DNA of 64,000 nucleotides from positions 1-64,000 of the forward strand of contig JAKITK010000002.1 in NCBI GenBank assembly GCA_021648125.1. The letters run 5' to 3'. Under the pieces are notes generated by a model, which made no database searches, was not told the origin of the DNA, and was given only the letters and a program-made list of their open reading frames with translations. A program made the translations under genes and the position numbers. The stretch is from Lysobacterales bacterium (lineage in GTDB: Bacteria; Pseudomonadota; Gammaproteobacteria; Xanthomonadales; SZUA-36). Shown piece by piece: positions 49,126 to 57,823 of this stretch; position 1 is the stretch's first letter; every line of letters begins with the position of its first letter.

Positions 49126-50187
49126 CTACTTCTTAAGTTGGTCGGGATTGATTGAGGTATCTACTCCAAACGAGCGCTGGTACTCAGATTTCGCATCCTG
49201 CATATCGTATTCTATTAACGCGCTCCCCTGGATACGCGAAGTTTCTATGGGGGCTATGGCCTTAAAGGTGAAAGTTTCAGGTTCTTTCTTGCCAAATTTC
49301 TGGACAAATTCAAACTTAATTGGCTGCTGCAAAGCCCCACCAGAAATGCTTATACGAACCGGGCCGTCTAACTTGGTCAGCGGAGTAAACTTCCAGCGTT
49401 CTTTGAATTCTTTTCCTGCCAGCAGTGGCACTGGGAACTCTCTAACTATAAAGAAATCAGGATGTAAAATCCCACACCGCATCTCACGCGCACCTGCATC
49501 CTCAAAACAGCGACAAGCTGGAACAAGGTTGCTGATTGGCAGCTCCAGAGGCAATCCGGTTATCGGGTCAGTTCTGCCAGGAATCAGGCAATTACCTGAC
49601 CTACCGGATATAGAGCGATCTTCCATCAAGGTAAAGAACGCAAGGTCATTAAATCGATCGGGAACACCTTTAAATGATAGCCAGCCTGGTGGATTAGGCC
49701 GCGAATCAAAAAAACCATCGCCGCGTGAATAAGTATCCCCTGCAGGAGCAGTCGCATAACTGCAATAACTATCTACACCAATTGTTTGTACTGAGAAAGC
49801 TAACTTATCACCAACTGAAACGCCAACTGGTGTTGGAAAGAAAAAATCGGTAAACCCAGTATAGGCTGATGGAACATCAGAGCCAAAGACTATAAGAGCT
49901 CGCAATAGCAAGCCAGTTGGGCGGCCATCTACTTGCCGGGTAAGCTGAATTAACAAATCACCCCTACCACAACCTGCAACCGGAATCCTGAGTCCAGCTA
50001 GATCGCCGTCCATTCCAACAGTAAAAGTCTGGGCAAGTTTTTGTTCCGAATCACTACCAACACCAAGAAAGCCTGCGCTTTCGTTAATAAGCGGCTGTTG
50101 TTGATCAATGACATAGCTAGCGGCGTTTACGCTAAGCGGAGTGATAAATAGAACTATCGTGAATAAAAACAATCTTGGAACATACAT
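49126..50187 (-). CDS. Hypothetical secreted protein
   Basis: The protein has 353 residues with a signal peptide (MYVPRLFLFTIVLFITPLSVNA). The N-terminal half is a beta-sandwich-like stretch (QKLAQTFTVGMDGDLAGLRIPVAGCGRGDLLIQLT...RPTGLLL) resembling carbohydrate- or lectin-like jelly rolls. The middle has a Cys-rich segment (CRCFEDAGAREMRCGILHP). The end is rich in Lys and charged residues. No named family is assigned. The 245 bp between the rluE stop and this gene's stop show nothing recognisable. The gene marks the left edge of the second accessory region. Confidence 0.62.
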   Translation of the reverse strand: MYVPRLFLFTIVLFITPLSVNAASYVIDQQQPLINESAGFLGVGSDSEQKLAQTFTVGMDGDLAGLRIPVAGCGRGDLLIQLTRQVDGRPTGLLLRALIVFGSDVPSAYTGFTDFFFPTPVGVSVGDKLAFSVQTIGVDSYCSYATAPAGDTYSRGDGFFDSRPNPPGWLSFKGVPDRFNDLAFFTLMEDRSISGRSGNCLIPGRTDPITGLPLELPISNLVPACRCFEDAGAREMRCGILHPDFFIVREFPVPLLAGKEFKERWKFTPLTKLDGPVRISISGGALQQPIKFEFVQKFGKKEPETFTFKAIAPIETSRIQGSALIEYDMQDAKSEYQRSFGVDTSINPDQLKK

Positions 50188-50323
50188 AATTAAATCCTCT
50201 TTTGTTTATGGCGAGATTATAAAACTCTCGTATACTAGTGTACACCGCACACCCAAAATCAAGACAGAGAAGCTCAGGAGAAGCTCAGAACATGCACTTC
50301 TTAAAAGGAGAAACTCAGCTGAG

Positions 50324-50494
50324 ATGCCTCGAAGATCTCGCCTAGTAATACTGGGAGTCCCAATGCATATAGTTCAGCGTGGCAACAACCGCCAGGCCTG
50401 TTTTTATGCTGATCATTTTCGGCATTTTCGGGACAGACCCGAATTGGCATTTTCGGGACAGACCCGAATTAAATCGACCCGAATTAAACCCTAA
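50324..50494 (+). pseudogene. REP-associated tyrosine transposase (RAYT) stub
   Basis: From the ATG at 50324 the reading is MPRRSRLVILGVPMHIVQRG, then NNRQACFYADH. This matches the first ~31 residues of RAYT/Y1 transposases (TnpA_REP; MPRRPRLVLPGVPLHVVQRGNNRQ in kin). After about 50420 the similarity stops and the frame enters a tandem pair of GGACAGACCCGAATT units. The HUH motif and catalytic Tyr lie further on in real proteins and are absent. It is the only trace of a transposase in the window. Its family is the one that moves REP palindromes. Confidence 0.82.
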
Positions 50495-50621: not shown

Positions 50622-50884
50622 TCAGAGTCCTCTTACATCATCAGCAAGCCAAACTTTGATCAGAGACTGGTAAGGCATATCTCGTTTATTGGCTTCAATC
50701 TTTATGCGGTCCAGTAAGCCTTCTGGCAGTCTAAGCGAAATGGTTTTAGTTGAGGGTTTCAAGCTTGACATTAAAACTGATTGAGCCTGTTTCCAGTCAA
50801 TATAATCACTGGAGTCATTTTTTTCCAAAAGACTCGCTCTTCCGCCTCAGTTTTAAATTTAGAAGTGCTTTTAACTTTGTTCAT
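50622..50884 (-). pseudogene. CopG-type antitoxin, frameshifted
   Basis: The ATG at 50884 overlaps the end of the BrnT-like gene and gives MNKVKSTSKFKTEAEERVFW. After a run of seven A residues the frame is lost. The next frame continues NDSSDYIDWKQAQSVLMSSLKPSTKTISLRLPEGLLDRIK and PYQSLIKVWLADDV, the typical CopG/PF12441 antitoxin. One base is missing at the GG-A7 run near 50820. Without it the antitoxin would be about 87 residues. A shorter product from the ATG at 50828 may still be made and contains the ribbon-helix-helix DNA-binding part. Confidence 0.8.
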
Positions 50885-51089
50885 AAGTAATTCTCTCTTT
50901 CCGGTGCATATCACGAGCCGAAATTACGCGGATCAATGTATCGCCTGAGCGTAAGGTAAAAGTTATGTGCAGCAATCGATCTTCATTGGTTCTACCGAGG
51001 GCATGGTAGCGATATTCGATTTGGCTATGTTTTTTATCCATCAGTATCAGCAACGGTTGGTTAAAAAATATCTGTTCTGCCTCAAACCT
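50871..51089 (-). pseudogene. BrnT-type toxin, N-terminally truncated
   Basis: The frame reads FEAEQIFFNQPLLILMDKKHSQIEYRYHALGRTNEDRLLHITFTLRSGDTLIRVISARDMHRKERITYEQ. This is the body of a BrnT RelE-like ribonuclease (DUF497). The usual first ~25 residues (a WD-xxK-xxN-xxKHG type start) are missing. Upstream the frame turns non-homologous and meets a stop at 51135. The gene overlaps the antitoxin start, the normal toxin-antitoxin order for BrnT. A product from TTG at 51053 would be 60 residues and probably inactive. Confidence 0.78.
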
Positions 51090-51256: not shown

Positions 51257-51307
51257 GTGCCATTCAGGACAGACACGAATGGCACTAAGTGTAGCGAGCC
51301 ACTTAAC
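51257..51307 (+). repeat. REP-like palindrome and left 37-bp direct repeat
   Basis: AGTGCCATTC and GAATGGCACT form a 10-bp inverted repeat around AGGACAGACAC. The segment 51271-51307 matches 53287-53323 at 36 of 37 positions. This is the left boundary of the FG-GAP segment. Confidence 0.85.
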
Positions 51308-51315
51308 GAAATACA

Positions 51316-51402
51316 GGGTCAGGTCTTGTATTTTACATATTAAAGTGAAAATAAGACCTGGCCTATTTACTGTTGCAATGCAAATTACAAGACCTGACCC
51401 CT
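51316..51402 (+). repeat. 87-bp MITE-like hairpin
   Basis: GGGTCAGGTCTTGTATTTTA at the left and AATTACAAGACCTGACCC at the right are near-perfect inverted ends around a ~45-nt centre with a second internal AAGACCTGG. It has no coding capacity. It lies next to the REP-like palindrome in the 51090-51633 spacer, which otherwise holds the FADGFE stub and the FG-GAP leader. Confidence 0.72.
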
Positions 51403-51500
51403 TATACTGCTTTACTGTTGAACAGCAGTGACTAGCATTCAAAAAGTTTGCGCTTCAAATGAAAAAGTATGTTAGCGTAGTGAATTCGCGGGCAGACTAA

Positions 51501-51530
51501 TTGTTTGCCGATGGCTTTGAGGAGCCTTGG
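51501..51530 (+). pseudogene. FADGFE stub of a lost upstream gene
   Basis: Codons at 51501-51530 read LFADGFEEPW, directly after an in-frame TAA. They resemble the last codons of the FG-GAP gene (LFADGFEAP-stop) also at the DNA level (24 of 30 bases by eye). No body of a gene precedes them. They look like the end of a paralogue left behind by recombination within the motif. Confidence 0.6.
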
Positions 51531-51633
51531 GCCACTTTCAAGTGGTGCCGTGACCCTCCGTGTCGTTTCGTCGTCCACTTTCCGATATCAGGGCGTCCGC
51601 GCGGTGCAATGTTTGGCATTGGGAGAGAAAGCT

Positions 51634-53184
51634 ATGAATCGATGGTTTTACACAGGGTTGTTGTTGGCAGGCTTTCTGGTGCCTGGTGGCCAGGTGGCCG
51701 CGCAGCTGCAGGCGGCCGGGGCGCAACTCTGGCATCAAGCTTCGCCTAACTTGGGTCTCACGCCAGCGGTGAATCGCAGATTCGGCCATGCGCTGAGCAC
51801 CGGCGACTACAACTGCGACGGACTCGACGATGCCGCCATTAGCATGCCCGGCTCGATCTTCGGCGGGCCGGACGGTGGCCGCGTACTCGTGCTGTACGCC
51901 GCCGATAACGGCGGTGGTTTGAGCACCACCAATCGCCAGATCTGGTCGCAGTCGAGCCCGGGGGTGGCCGGCGTCGAGACTGGGTCCGATGACTTTGGGG
52001 ACGCGCTTGCCAGCGGCGACTTTGATAATGATGGTTGCGATGACCTGGCCATCGGCGTGCATTTTGACAACATCGAAGGTTTCCTTAACGCGGGTGCAGT
52101 GAACGTACTCTATGGATCCGCGGCGGGTGGCCTGACTGCAGACGACGATGACTACTGGCACCAGGGTCCAAGCAGTGCTGGCGGCGCGCTTGAGGCGCAG
52201 GACAGGTTCGGCAGCGCGCTCGCAGCTGGCGATTTTAACGGCGATGGCTTCGATGACCTCGCCATCGGCATCCCTGGCGAGGACATCGGCAGCGGCGCGG
52301 CGCAAGTCGAAAACGCCGGAGCAATCCAGGTGTTGTTTGGGCGCGGATCGGGGCTGAGCACAGCCCGTAGCGTAATCCTGCGCCGAGGCACCAATCTATC
52401 TGGTTCGCCCGTGACCGATGAATTTATCGGTGGGGTTCTGGCCGCTGGCAATGCCAACGCCTCCTTTGGCGATGAACTGATAATTGGTATTCCAAACTTC
52501 AGCATCTCAGCGACCTTGGACAATGCTGGCGCAATCATCATCGTCAGCGATGTAGATGGCGCCGTCCTTGATCAAACGATTACCCAGGCCAGCACCGGTA
52601 TTCCCGGCGTTGCAGAGGCTGACGATCGTTTTGGCGCTGCGCTTGCGCTGGGTGATTTCGACGGCAATGGTTTCGCAGAGGTGGCAGTTGGTGTTCCTGG
52701 AGAGGGCGTTGGTGTCATTGCTGGCGCGGGAGCGATCAACATCATCGACATTACCGCGAGCAACCATACAATTTGGACGCAGGACGATCTGCCGCCAGAG
52801 CAAGCAGAGGTTGTCGATAGTTTCGGCAGCGCGCTGGCCACCGCCGACTTCAACGGCGACGGCATCGATGATCTCGCCATCGGCGCCAGTGGTGAGAATC
52901 TCGGTATTTCGGTGAACAACGCCGGCTTGGTGCACGTGATACAGGGCAGCGCGGCCGCTGGTCTAACATCGGTTGGACGGCAGATATGGTCGCTGCCATT
53001 TGACCCCGCCAATAGCGGAAGTTTATTTGGATCGGCGTTGGCGGCTGGCCGGATCAATTCCGGTGCTGCCGACCTGATTATCGGCGCGCCAAATAATTCG
53101 GTGTCGGTGAACCGGGGAGGTAGTGCTACGGTGCTGTATTCGCCGAGAGATGAGCTGTTCGCTGATGGTTTTGAGGCACCTTGA
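51634..53184 (+). CDS. Secreted FG-GAP (integrin alpha-like) repeat protein with FADGFE tail
   Basis: The protein has 516 residues. The start at 51634 follows GGGAGAGAAAG. A signal peptide (MNRWFYTGLLLAGFLVPGGQVAAQ) leads into seven FG-GAP blades. Each has the Ca-binding motif, for example DYNCDGLDDAAI, DFDNDGCDDLAIG, DFNGDGFDDLAIG, DFDGNGFAEVAVG and DFNGDGIDDLAIG, followed by a VLYG/VLFG strand. It should fold as an extracellular beta-propeller that may bind glycans or proteins. The C-terminus ends DELFADGFEAP. The DNA is far more GC-rich than its surroundings and is bracketed by 37-bp direct repeats, which indicates transfer. Confidence 0.9.
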   Translation: MNRWFYTGLLLAGFLVPGGQVAAQLQAAGAQLWHQASPNLGLTPAVNRRFGHALSTGDYNCDGLDDAAISMPGSIFGGPDGGRVLVLYAADNGGGLSTTNRQIWSQSSPGVAGVETGSDDFGDALASGDFDNDGCDDLAIGVHFDNIEGFLNAGAVNVLYGSAAGGLTADDDDYWHQGPSSAGGALEAQDRFGSALAAGDFNGDGFDDLAIGIPGEDIGSGAAQVENAGAIQVLFGRGSGLSTARSVILRRGTNLSGSPVTDEFIGGVLAAGNANASFGDELIIGIPNFSISATLDNAGAIIIVSDVDGAVLDQTITQASTGIPGVAEADDRFGAALALGDFDGNGFAEVAVGVPGEGVGVIAGAGAINIIDITASNHTIWTQDDLPPEQAEVVDSFGSALATADFNGDGIDDLAIGASGENLGISVNNAGLVHVIQGSAAAGLTSVGRQIWSLPFDPANSGSLFGSALAAGRINSGAADLIIGAPNNSVSVNRGGSATVLYSPRDELFADGFEAP

Positions 53185-53286
53185 AGCTGTCCGCGTGCCG
53201 CGCCGCTGCTTTTCGATGAGGTCTTGATGCCCTTGTTTTTTTTGATGCTTGATCCTAGGCAAAACTCTCGCCTGAAACCCGAGGAT

Positions 53287-53323
53287 AGACACGAATGGCA
53301 CTAAGTGTAGCGAGTCACTTAAC
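53287..53323 (+). repeat. Right 37-bp direct repeat
   Basis: This matches 51271-51307 at 36 of 37 positions and carries the GAATGGCACTAAGTG motif. The 217 bp between the FG-GAP stop and the rhodanese stop contain only this and no gene. Confidence 0.85.
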
Positions 53324-53401: not shown

Positions 53402-53797
53402 TTAGCGCCGGATCGCTTGTAGCCTCTTGAAGCCCAGACCATTAAATATATTGTAATAGCCGGCTTTAGCCAGCGCTTGCTGGGCAACCCCGGAGCGCTG
53501 GCCGCTACGGCAGTAGAGAACAACAGGGCGGGATTTATTCTCGCCGATCGCCTTAATCAGAGCTGCAGTATCAGTATGGGGAATATTAGCTGCTATCTCC
53601 AAGTGGCCTCCAGCGTATTCTTTGGGGCTACGAACATCAATGACTAAAGCACCATCATCAATCATTTGCCAGGCAGCTAAGGCAATCTCTTTACGCTCTG
53701 CGGAGCTATCGCAGGCGCTGATAAGAAGTGGCAATATTAAAATTAGCAGCGAGAATTTGAAAAAATGGCGGGTGTTTAAGGGCAAACGAAATTTCAT
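53402..53797 (-). CDS. Rhodanese-like lipoprotein
   Basis: The protein has 131 residues. A signal with lipobox LLISACDSS anchors it outside the cytoplasm. The single rhodanese domain has IDVRSPKEYAGGHLEIAANIPH and the active-site loop YCRSGQRSG with the catalytic Cys. It probably transfers sulphur or acts as a periplasmic thiol enzyme, as PspE-like proteins do. It lies alone downstream of tamB on the same strand. Confidence 0.88.
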   Translation of the reverse strand: MKFRLPLNTRHFFKFSLLILILPLLISACDSSAERKEIALAAWQMIDDGALVIDVRSPKEYAGGHLEIAANIPHTDTAALIKAIGENKSRPVVLYCRSGQRSGVAQQALAKAGYYNIFNGLGFKRLQAIRR

Positions 53798-53842: not shown

Positions 53843-56800
53843 CTACCGGTCGATGGAATAGAGAACATCTACGCCAGAACCAGAATCAGCAGAGGTTCCC
53901 TGTACCGCCCAGTTACCAGTAAGCTCGTAGCGGGCGGAAACTTCGTTGCCGGTATCAAACAGACCAATGCCGTAGCTGACGAACAGTTTGGGATAGATGT
54001 AGGTGCCGATATTGAGACTGCCGACGCCGTTTCCATGGTCAAAACTACCGCCGGTGGCCAGATAAGCAACGGCAGACTCCTGATCGGTCTCCGGGTCAGT
54101 ATAAAGTTTTAGTCTGATATCATCAGGTCGCCCGCTGATGTGAATGCCGGCAAGCTTGACTTCCGGGTCGGCAAAAATATGCCGAACAGCATAAATATCT
54201 AAAACCGGGTTACTCGCCGCTTTACCATCGAATCTAATTTCTGAATTCAAAAAGTTCAGGTTCTGACCGTATTGACGGAAAAACCCATCCACTAACTGAA
54301 TGGAACCGCGTGCCGTGGGCATGGGCGAGTCACCCTCGAATAATAAATCAAGCCTGCCCGTTAATTGCGTTTCAATACTGGCCATTTCGAAGTGGACATC
54401 ATCACCGAGGCTTACTTTGACACTGCCGTGAATGCTCAATGGCAGTGTTTTTTCTTCTTCTACTACTACTACTATGGTTTCAAGGCCGGTAACCACCACA
54501 TCATCGGATAAAGGGGTACTACTGATCACTCCTGGTGGCGGCGTTATCCTCGCACTGGGAATCTCGATACTACCCTCAATGCTGAGTTGATCCTCTGACA
54601 ACACTAGGGCAAGGTCAGGCGTAATTTTGAGCTTTAAACCCGGAGCATTGAGTAACTGCAGATCAGTGCCGGTAATTCTAAGGTCAAGTTTAGTTTTCGC
54701 GCCTGAGTTATCGATGCCAACCTGAATATCACCTTGGCCTTCACCTACAATAAAGCTGCCTTCAAGTATTGAATTGCGATGACTTTGCAAGTTACCTTTT
54801 AGGTTAAGCTTGCTGATCTCTATTCCCAATGGAGTATAGGTCAGGCCAACATCGTTAATCGCTATACTACCTTCAAGTTCCGGCGTCAGCAGTCTGCCTT
54901 TGATTTGCATGTCCGTGGCAAATGTGCCTGAAAGGTCGTCTAGACCAGGTAACAACCATTTAAGGGCTATTAAATCATCCAGCACAACCTTTAACTTGCC
55001 CTCAATTCGAGCGTTTTCAATATCTGTTGTTTGCGCAATATTAAATTCCAAATTTAACCCTGTACCTACCTTGAAGGGCAGGTCAAAGCGCCCACTCAGG
55101 TTTTTCTCACGGTCGAAGTTGAATTCTAACAAGCCTTGTTCCGTTTCAAGCATGCCGGCATCAAGGTCGAGAGAAGCAACAATACCCGGGCTAAGTTCGA
55201 AGCGGCCATTGATGGAATGCACACTGCTGACAGGTGGGTCACCAGAGGCGCTTAGTTCACCGCTGATGCTCTGACCTACTGCCAGATCAACGGGTAGGAA
55301 TGCGGTAATCCATGCGAGTGGAAATTTGTCCAGTTTTAACTGACTGGTATATAGGTTTTGGTTTTCTTCGGGTTTTCTTTCCAAGCAGAACTCTGCTTGT
55401 ATAGCATCAGGCTGTTGCCGAAAACAGGTACTTGAAAGCTGTAATTGCATATCATTGAATAGCACTTTAGCAGGCGCCTGCAACGCCAGGGTGCCGGTCA
55501 CCGGGGTAGTAATATCCATTGATAGTAACTCACCATCCAGGCTGAATGTTTGCTGGTTCAGCCCAATTTCAGCGTTGAGCAGTGCCGAGAGGGAGTTTTT
55601 ATACGACTCAACATGAAGGCTGATATTGTGCTGCTTGCTACCGTTTTCTGGCTTAACGGCGTGGAGTTGAAGGCTGTCTATTGGTAACTCGAAAGCTGCA
55701 AGCTTAACCTTGCTTGCCTCTATTTGAGCGTCAAGTTGTAAGTTTTGACTATTGCTTGTGGGAATCAGCGTATCGATGCTCAAGCTGAGTTTTTCCAGGG
55801 ATGCCTCATCCGTGTTGATATTCTCTGCTTGCAGGTCGAGTAACAAGTTTTGACCCTCTGCCGATGGGCGCAGTTGGCCATTGGCATTGATTCGCCCTGA
55901 ACCACCACTGATAAACTGCCCTAGATCAGGAATGATAATCTTAAAGTCTGTAGTGCCCGCTAACGGATCCTCAAGGCTGACTTTGCCTTGCAGGTCTAGT
56001 AGTGCCTCACCACTGCTGGCCTTGATGCCCATTTCCAGATGGTTGCCGTCGAGTAAGTGTATATTGCCACTGGCCTGCAATGGATTATCCCGAAGTGTGC
56101 CGCTTAATTGCTGTATTTGCAGACTAAGTTGCTCTTCAGGGGTTTCTCCAGCGGCCTGCCATTGCAGGTTCATTTCTAGGCCGAGATCTCCGTTGTAGTC
56201 ATTCCAGTGACTGCCTGGGTTAATGTTGCTGCCGCTAACTTTCAATTTTGCTAGCAATTGTGGTTGCCATTGCAGTTCACCGCTGAGTGTCAGTTCACCC
56301 TCAAGTATCTGGCTGTTTAGCCGCTGCAAATGTAGCCCGCTTTGATTGCCTGTGCCCTCAAGCTGATATAAGCCGGTGGGGATGTTGCTGCCGGATACAT
56401 CAAACTGTCCCGCCAATTGGTAGTTATCCAGGCTGCCGGTGACGCTAAGATTTCCTGCGTTACTGCGGTAAGCAGGCGCCGGTGTCGCCAACGGCCAGCT
56501 GAGGTTTTCCCAATTCAGTTGGGCATCAATGGTGTCAGCCAGCAGTTTTATATTGCCTTCAACCCGGGTAATGGAATCATCAATAACAGCGAGTAAGTTG
56601 GTAATGGAAATGGCTTGGTTTTGGTAATCCACGGTAGCGTGACCGCTGCTGCTCACCTGGTTCGGCCAATCGGGAACAACTACCCCGGCTTTGAGTTGGC
56701 GCCACTTAAATACACCATTTATTGAAAGTTCATCTGGGTTGATGTTGCCCTGAAAGTCAAATTCACCAATGTCGCCACTTAAACCTAGGTGTGCGATTTC

Positions 56801-57823
56801 AATAGCCTGCATATCCCGTTTTGCACTCAGGGACCAGTTACCGTTAATGTTGTCAGCACCCGCTGCACTGAGGCTGAGTCCGGCACCACCATTAAGCTGC
56901 CAGTTTTGTAGTCCGCCACTAGCGTGAATATCCAGCTGTTGAAATTCAACACTGTTTTCAGCGGCCAGTGGCAAGTTCAATTGTTGGCTCTCAAGCTGTG
57001 CTTGCCAGCGCAGCTTATCCAGCAAGTCATCTAATTTTGCACTGAGAGTAAGGTTGATGTCGCCACGGCTTTCGAGTTGTATTTGCAGTTGTCGGGTATC
57101 GCCGCTGGAATTCAGCTTGATGATATCCTCACTGATCAGTTGCAGGTATACATCAGGGTTCGCCGGATCAATTTTTGGAATCAACTGCAATTCCAGCTGG
57201 TGCTTCCAGGGGGCTTTCAATTGGGCTAAGCCGGACAGGCTAAGCTCGGCGGTGAGGGCCTGGCTAGCTTCCTGATCGGTAGCTGTAGGTAAATAAGTCA
57301 GCCGAGTTTTCAGCTCGCGGAGATTGAGAGATTTACCAATTTGCAAGGAGGCACGGGTATTTCCAGCTGTTACCTTTGTCTCTGAGCCTGAATAGAGCAG
57401 CTGGGTAATTTGCAGGGATTTAAGCTCAACTTCCAGCGGCAGACTTAAGTCAGTCATCGTCGCTTCCTTGGTATCGGTATCGGTATCGGTATCGCCTTCA
57501 GCTACCTGTACTTGCAGCTTTTCAATCTTTAGCTGATTGATTAGGAGAGTGAACGGGAAGAGTCGGTAATCAACCTGTGTATTTAGATTATTTATAGTGA
57601 GATCAGTGCCGCTATTCCGATAACGCAGCTTGCCGATACGGATACCACTATTGATATTGCCTTTAATGTTATGCAAGGCAATCAGTGGTTTTTCCTTAGA
57701 CTCGGCAAAGCCCAGCAGCCAGCGGGTACCGGCATCGCTACGGGTCAGCCAAAAGTAGCCGGCCAACGCTAGCAGGAGTAAAACCCCGGCTGCTATTAAC
57801 AGATATTTGAGCCATGTTTTCAT
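53843..57823 (-). CDS. tamB: Translocation and assembly module subunit TamB
   Basis: The protein has 1326 residues, the usual size. One N-terminal anchor helix (WLKYLLIAAGVLLLLALAGYFW) is followed by a long beta-helical periplasmic chain. The C-terminal DUF490 domain shows IRFDGKAASNPVLDIYAVRH, AVAYLATGGSFDHGNG and PKLFVSYGIGLFDTGNEVSARYELT. It works with TamA in outer-membrane protein or lipid transport. The start overlaps the tamA stop by 4 bp. Four GGTATC hexamers at 57470-57493 encode a DTDTDTD stretch. Confidence 0.95.
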   Translation of the reverse strand: MKTWLKYLLIAAGVLLLLALAGYFWLTRSDAGTRWLLGFAESKEKPLIALHNIKGNINSGIRIGKLRYRNSGTDLTINNLNTQVDYRLFPFTLLINQLKIEKLQVQVAEGDTDTDTDTKEATMTDLSLPLEVELKSLQITQLLYSGSETKVTAGNTRASLQIGKSLNLRELKTRLTYLPTATDQEASQALTAELSLSGLAQLKAPWKHQLELQLIPKIDPANPDVYLQLISEDIIKLNSSGDTRQLQIQLESRGDINLTLSAKLDDLLDKLRWQAQLESQQLNLPLAAENSVEFQQLDIHASGGLQNWQLNGGAGLSLSAAGADNINGNWSLSAKRDMQAIEIAHLGLSGDIGEFDFQGNINPDELSINGVFKWRQLKAGVVVPDWPNQVSSSGHATVDYQNQAISITNLLAVIDDSITRVEGNIKLLADTIDAQLNWENLSWPLATPAPAYRSNAGNLSVTGSLDNYQLAGQFDVSGSNIPTGLYQLEGTGNQSGLHLQRLNSQILEGELTLSGELQWQPQLLAKLKVSGSNINPGSHWNDYNGDLGLEMNLQWQAAGETPEEQLSLQIQQLSGTLRDNPLQASGNIHLLDGNHLEMGIKASSGEALLDLQGKVSLEDPLAGTTDFKIIIPDLGQFISGGSGRINANGQLRPSAEGQNLLLDLQAENINTDEASLEKLSLSIDTLIPTSNSQNLQLDAQIEASKVKLAAFELPIDSLQLHAVKPENGSKQHNISLHVESYKNSLSALLNAEIGLNQQTFSLDGELLSMDITTPVTGTLALQAPAKVLFNDMQLQLSSTCFRQQPDAIQAEFCLERKPEENQNLYTSQLKLDKFPLAWITAFLPVDLAVGQSISGELSASGDPPVSSVHSINGRFELSPGIVASLDLDAGMLETEQGLLEFNFDREKNLSGRFDLPFKVGTGLNLEFNIAQTTDIENARIEGKLKVVLDDLIALKWLLPGLDDLSGTFATDMQIKGRLLTPELEGSIAINDVGLTYTPLGIEISKLNLKGNLQSHRNSILEGSFIVGEGQGDIQVGIDNSGAKTKLDLRITGTDLQLLNAPGLKLKITPDLALVLSEDQLSIEGSIEIPSARITPPPGVISSTPLSDDVVVTGLETIVVVVEEEKTLPLSIHGSVKVSLGDDVHFEMASIETQLTGRLDLLFEGDSPMPTARGSIQLVDGFFRQYGQNLNFLNSEIRFDGKAASNPVLDIYAVRHIFADPEVKLAGIHISGRPDDIRLKLYTDPETDQESAVAYLATGGSFDHGNGVGSLNIGTYIYPKLFVSYGIGLFDTGNEVSARYELTGNWAVQGTSADSGSGVDVLYSIDR

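Follow-up and report, generated by a model that had tools for sequence, protein, structure and literature searches.

A C-terminal FxDGFE tag on exported proteins of Lysobacterales and a PDZ-bearing second T2SS as its candidate reader

The stretch of DNA analysed here, 64 kb long and hereafter called the window, contains three coding sites for the motif FxDGFE, against a mean of 0.01 in 100 shuffles, none of which reached three. One of them, LFADGFEAP (53155–53181, forward strand, with the stop codon extending to 53184), forms in translation the C terminus of an exported FG-GAP repeat protein of 516 residues with a signal peptide, encoded at 51634–53184 on the same strand. This protein matches the Pfam FG-GAP model with an E value of 1.5e-43 (146.4 bits, cut-off 22.1), and its start is most likely the ATG at 51634, followed by the signal peptide, rather than the start of the frame at 51505. 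On the reverse strand, an unrelated secreted protein of 259 residues (419–1198), with a signal peptide and no Pfam match, ends in translation with VFADGFEP (422–445). The third site, LFADGFEEPW (51501–51530, forward strand), is a tag remnant, called the stub below; it lies at a step in GC content, and an alignment with the true tail gives 24 identical nucleotides of 33. The original prediction that the stub resembles the end of the FG-GAP protein, and that the same tail closes the secreted protein at 419–1198, proved right: the first two are both encoded on the forward strand, and the last ends with VFADGFE, a proline and a stop. Its description of the stub as a unit of ten codons did not hold, since the frame is not closed there; it lies directly after a TAA and runs on for 82 codons, with TGG at the position where the true tail has TGA. 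AlphaFold models of the two tagged proteins of the window, with mean pLDDT values of 38.6 and 29.5, were left unused.

The FG-GAP gene and the stub belong to a block with a GC content of 54–60% (60% in the gene itself), compared with 36–40% to its left. The step from 0.40 to 0.57 is located at 51503/51504, with the stub marking the left boundary of the GC-rich block, and 112 bp separate the end of the stub motif from the start codon of the FG-GAP gene. Outside the tags, the block is bracketed by two 42-bp direct repeats on the forward strand (51266–51307 and 53282–53323) that are 95% identical to each other. The left repeat, together with the bases to its left, completes a REP-like hairpin, the left half of which is missing from the right repeat. 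The space from the left repeat to the stub contains an inverted-repeat element (51311–51405) with 28-nt arms, 86% complementary. The 27-nt core of the 42-bp repeat occurs only twice in the genome of the window when up to three mismatches are allowed, and in none of the 38 other genomes of the family; because of this absence, no empty insertion site could be found among those 38. The search returned no full-length relative of the FG-GAP protein from its own genus or family; its relatives, 59–61% identical, come from other families of the order, one of them being a partial sequence at a contig end. Tagged FG-GAP genes in tandem, about 150–160 bp apart, are present elsewhere (L173). Since such pairs exist, the stub is better read, and is well explained, as the truncated tail of an upstream tagged neighbor carried in with the block. 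A foreign block would in this way have brought one tagged gene, along with the tail of the next, into the window.

The surroundings of the block include several other elements. An ORF at 50141–50494 has a start like that of a RAYT transposase (MPRRSRLVILGVPMHIVQRGNNRQACFYAD, recognized by eye; no Pfam match), and a 25-bp REP-like unit related to the 42-bp flanking repeat is found twice in tandem at 50421–50470. A CopG-type antitoxin (50622–51053, reverse strand; Pfam 1e-24) appears to have its N-terminal part in another frame, and the tail of a BrnT-like toxin (50871–51053, by eye) lies ahead of the CopG part, the two probably representing a broken toxin-antitoxin pair. Directly downstream of the block are the genes of a rhodanese-domain protein (53402–53797) and of a TamB homologue (53843–57823), both on the reverse strand.

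The tag pattern throughout the order can be written as [ILV]-F-x-[DN]-G-F-E-x(0-14)-stop, with a terminal consensus D-L-I-F-x-[DN]-G-F-E-COOH that comprises 7–9 residues and in which the leading Asp is optional. In the strict C-terminal set (n = 103), Asp is present at position −3 in 69 and Ile at −1 in 93 sequences; after the Ile come Phe, any residue, Asp or Asn, Gly, Phe, and Glu, usually with an immediate stop, the Ile, the Gly and the immediate stop of this set being biased by the search pattern. When one site per genome was sampled without requiring a stop, 24 of 28 sites were C-terminal. The Glu of the tag is followed by 0–14 residues, mostly by none, and neither a transmembrane helix nor a basic tail was found after it. 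Among the FG-GAP homologues, which were collected by protein similarity alone and are thus free of the pattern bias, most closed C termini carry the motif or a near variant in which the Gly is replaced by Arg, Asp, Ser, or Pro. In the tagged proteins that were searched, the tail lies outside every Pfam or NCBIfam match. On the DNA level, each position of the tag draws on its full range of synonymous codons in the set of tagged sites, and the number of distinct tag 18-mers is 90, compared with 101.7 obtained from shuffled codons; the sharing of 18-mers can be explained by related genomes within the sample. The sequences that follow the stub and the FG-GAP tag are no more alike than shuffled ones. 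Since the codons vary and nothing is conserved downstream of these two tags, selection acts on the peptide.

Some tags deviate from this arrangement. Doubled tags are present at the C terminus at three loci (L107, L179, and L232), as exemplified by LIFKNGFESDIIFKDGFE (L107) and LIFEDGFDPFIDLIFIDGFE, and a minority of tags are N-terminal or located between domains (L089, L092, L093, L094, and L096). At L089, L094, L096, and L051 the motif stands just after a signal peptide or a short leader and is followed by other sequence, and at L097:1-700 it is found within a frame assigned by eye as RHS-like, directly before a YFIHSDHLGTPRRVIDA core.

A signal peptide is recognizable in at least 59 of 85 complete tagged ORFs and, by eye, in several others, and no lipobox was present in any of these 59; by a crude measure, 49 of 74 tagged frames carry a signal peptide vs 137 of 639 control frames. 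Tagged proteins thus have the features of substrates of a type II secretion system (T2SS), namely a Sec signal peptide and a soluble, lipobox-free product. Their folds are unrelated (FG-GAP, GDSL lipase, reprolysin, β-helix, S8, M28, M64, GSDH, and amidase), with FG-GAP and β-helix proteins being frequent, and two tagged proteins have domains in common with M36 peptidases that depend on rhombosortase and myxosortase. Nine strict sites (F-x-D-G-F-E with x restricted) are present in the genome of the window, an assembly of 3.23 Mb in 111 contigs, and a wider search for DGFE yielded more ORFs that end with [IL]-[FM]-x-DGFE a few residues before the stop. The tagged ORFs of this genome encode FG-GAP, GDSL lipase, and reprolysin-type proteins, as well as proteins with no assigned fold. 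In its cytosolic DGFE proteins (an FtsH-like ATPase and response regulators, identified by eye), the motif lacks the preceding Phe and is not terminal. The sorting-signal reading in the original prediction, for which the tail should be neither rare nor a property of cytosolic proteins, is supported, since the motif is common, C-terminal, and carried by exported proteins.

The recurrent neighbors of tagged genes are housekeeping genes, an ECF sigma factor, and a probable protein kinase; no recurrent protease or membrane enzyme was recognized next to them at the tagged loci. The ECF sigma factor adjoins tagged genes at L123, L167, L175, L176, L190, L210, and L211, and the apparent kinase recurs at ten tagged loci. 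The sigma family TIGR02999 was considered as a partner of the tag and rejected, being found in all 63 genomes; its copies number 4–43 (mostly at least 13) in tag-rich vs 1–19 in tag-poor genomes, with genome size as a likely confounder.

Sites of the pattern TTYNNNRAYGGNTTYGAR reach 113 per genome and are found in many families of Lysobacterales, the order from which the window comes, with a reversed-pattern control giving mostly 0–2. In most genera of two families, f2 and f12, there are 0–7 such sites per genome, mostly 0–3, and a related C-terminal pattern stays at the control level in 271 genomes from other orders of the class. The tag is present in Marinicella, Dokdonella, Tahibacter, Pseudofulvimonas, and Chiayiivirga, as well as in Lysobacterales metagenome bins; two records labelled Sedimenticola contain long ORFs that also end with the motif. 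Literature searches for the motif returned only accidental letter matches, and searches that combined the genera with secretion terms returned no description of a tag. The tag is real, widespread, and apparently undescribed.

Two secretins matching TIGR02517 (GspD) are present in the genome of the window and in every tag-rich genome of the panel. T2SS in general was rejected as a partner of the tag; it is present in nearly all genomes, so that its presence is uninformative until the subtypes are split. A tree of 95 GspD sequences, quickly built and with its long branches flagged, has two deep clades, type A and type B. Nearly every genome has type B. All 29 tag-rich genomes have type A, as do five genomes of the genus g22, and it is missing from the tag-poor genomes of three families (f2, f12, and genus g11 of f1). 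Some f2 genomes, which we take to be Xanthomonas-like, have second secretins that represent separate lineages and not type A. The type A genes follow the order gspC-D-E-F; ftsEX lies close by at roughly half of the loci that were read, and the copy in the genome of the window (contig C40) adjoins ftsEX.

A type-A profile search was extended to 299 genomes of the order, with tag presence defined as at least ten sites. Among those at least 90% complete, 61 have both the tags and type A, 22 type A only, 6 tags only, and 160 neither; by genus, the corresponding numbers are 27, 4, 2, and 47, leaving six discordant genera. Most of the tags-only genomes are fragmented assemblies, but two of them (G015 and G020), with about 9–10 genuine tags each and no type-A GspD, are true exceptions. 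Conversely, g22 (family f9) has type A with only 0–6 strict sites, none of the four sites in one of its genomes (G071) being a tag, and four other genomes (G256, G274, G229, and G012) resemble it in having type A and few tags. The link between the tag and type A is weakened by both G015 and G020 and by g22. In a phylogeny-aware comparison, four of five independent contrasts were concordant and none was opposed (p 0.125); after allowing for ancestry, the association is thus suggestive and not significant.

The two types differ in their GspC, with a PDZ domain present in 27 of 28 type-A GspC proteins and in none of 19 type-B GspC-like proteins. PDZ domains classically bind free C-terminal peptides, and for this reason the type-A GspC is favored, albeit tentatively, as the protein that might read the tag. 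The PDZ domain of EpsC from Vibrio cholerae is required for one T2SS substrate (PMC12369372). The up to 14 residues that trail some tags, together with the internal and N-terminal ones, fit poorly with a strictly C-terminal PDZ ligand.

NpdA is described as an S-layer protein encoded next to a gsp cluster and reported from Dokdonella, Tahibacter, Chiayiivirga, and Sedimenticola (PMC10765051). An NpdA-like protein of 514 residues, secreted and lacking the tag at its end, is encoded in the genome of the window downstream of the type B T2SS (L405:11221-12762); its identity, as in the other genomes, is based on its place beside the gsp cluster and on the taxa listed for NpdA, and not on alignment to the published protein. 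The region around it (L405:10426-16373) also contains a conserved gene of a PPIC-type isomerase, as well as a gene of a 142-residue protein present in 14 of 14 tag-rich and 3 of 6 tag-poor loci.

Computation directly shows what the motif is and where it stands, that its carriers have export signals and diverse folds, that it is restricted to the order, and that it co-occurs with type A T2SS and NpdA; the reader is uncertain among the PDZ-bearing second T2SS, the S-layer, and another enzyme. The tag might instead be a label for surface retention that, once any T2SS has exported the protein, docks it to the NpdA-type S-layer or to a glycan linked to that layer. In favor of this, the loci read place the NpdA-like gene beside the type B T2SS in 29 of 29 tag-rich but only 10 of 25 tag-poor genomes. 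In G015 and G020, where type A is missing, retention might likewise apply; NpdA is present in four further genomes of their family. However, tags are few or absent in those ten tag-poor genomes with NpdA, NpdA itself is known from many Beta- and Gammaproteobacteria whereas the tag does not exceed chance in the sample of the class, and the state of NpdA differs in only two of the five independent contrasts, making us consider this explanation unlikely. Cleavage or modification of the tag by a putative sortase-like or protease enzyme, as for PEP-CTERM, GlyGly-CTERM, and MYXO-CTERM, would agree with the many-to-one pattern, with the C-terminal place, and with cargo domains like those of the rhombosortase- and myxosortase-dependent peptidases. 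It is quite unlikely, given the lack of a helix or a basic tail after the motif and of a recognizable enzyme among the recurrent neighbors.

The frequency of FG-GAP and β-helix proteins could mean that the tails were kept by descent in one expanded family, or as a structural last strand, with no role in sorting. Against this, the same 7–9 residues end unrelated folds, are doubled in some proteins, and are confined to a part of one order, and we find such an origin distinctly improbable. The original prediction had also offered a cassette junction, in which recombination within the coding tail inserts or swaps a gene; taken as a rival of the sorting signal, it would make the peptide incidental. 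The stub and the true tail do bracket the FG-GAP gene with their 24 shared nucleotides, and tag 18-mers are fewer than codon shuffling gives, but the free use of synonymous codons, the kinship of the sampled genomes, and the lack of likeness past the tags speak against it. The ends of the block are instead marked by the 42-bp repeats, which differ from the tag, lie outside it, and number two in the genome, and the gene end lacks the conserved DNA site for recombination that characterizes integron-type cassettes. The junction is thus largely refuted and very improbable.

Among known systems, the closest is that of GlyGly-CTERM and rhombosortase, where a short C-terminal signal is likewise found on many unrelated exported proteins of Gram-negative bacteria that have a T2SS (PMC3237569, PMC13393428), with some cargo domains in common. 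In contrast to GlyGly-CTERM, the tag lacks a Gly-rich stretch as well as a transmembrane helix and a basic tail, and no partner protease was identified. The rhombosortase study reported no T2SS subclass marked by rhombosortase, whereas the tag tracks one. MYXO-CTERM with myxosortase and PEP-CTERM with exosortase are similar in having dozens of tagged proteins per genome and a lineage-restricted or patchy occurrence, but both are tripartite, MYXO-CTERM with an invariant Cys (PMC11980579), whereas the tag is a bare end of 7–9 residues. Thus, of the features of tripartite signals (LPXTG, PEP-, GlyGly-, and MYXO-CTERM), a terminal motif on many exported proteins is present, and the helix with the basic tail is absent. 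The described T2SS determinants, such as the loops of PelI and Pel3 or the Ig fold of VesB acting via the PDZ domain of EpsC, also involve folded periplasmic cargo and GspC PDZ as a possible reader (PMC7949064, PMC12369372); they are composite or structural, whereas the tag would be a single linear C-terminal motif across the cargo. The NpdA S-layer and its adjacent T2SS (PMC10765051, as far as its available text goes) share the same kind of locus beside type B with the genome of the window and all tag-rich genomes, although that text describes no tag on other proteins and the NpdA-like protein found here has none.

Taken together, the FxDGFE tail is probably a C-terminal sorting signal of Lysobacterales. 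Tagged proteins would cross the inner membrane via Sec and fold on its periplasmic side; a machinery that either carries them over the outer membrane or keeps them on the cell surface may then recognize their terminal peptide, the likeliest candidate reader being the PDZ domain of GspC of the second T2SS. The model as a whole, with the tag as a sorting signal and the type-A GspC PDZ as its reader, stands about evenly balanced in our judgement. The broader proposal that, in S-layered Lysobacterales, much of the exported proteome is addressed by one linear C-terminal peptide via the GspC PDZ of a dedicated second T2SS is rather doubtful.

Recognition of cargo by T2SS has been described as elusive (PMC7949064). 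A tag of 7–9 residues that tracks a PDZ-bearing T2SS subtype would make it testable by deletion or transfer of the tail and, if true, would represent a sequence-defined T2SS export code, as opposed to the structural determinants known so far. Even without the link to T2SS, the tag provides a list of candidate exported proteins in many Lysobacterales, including the cultured Dokdonella, Tahibacter, and Marinicella.
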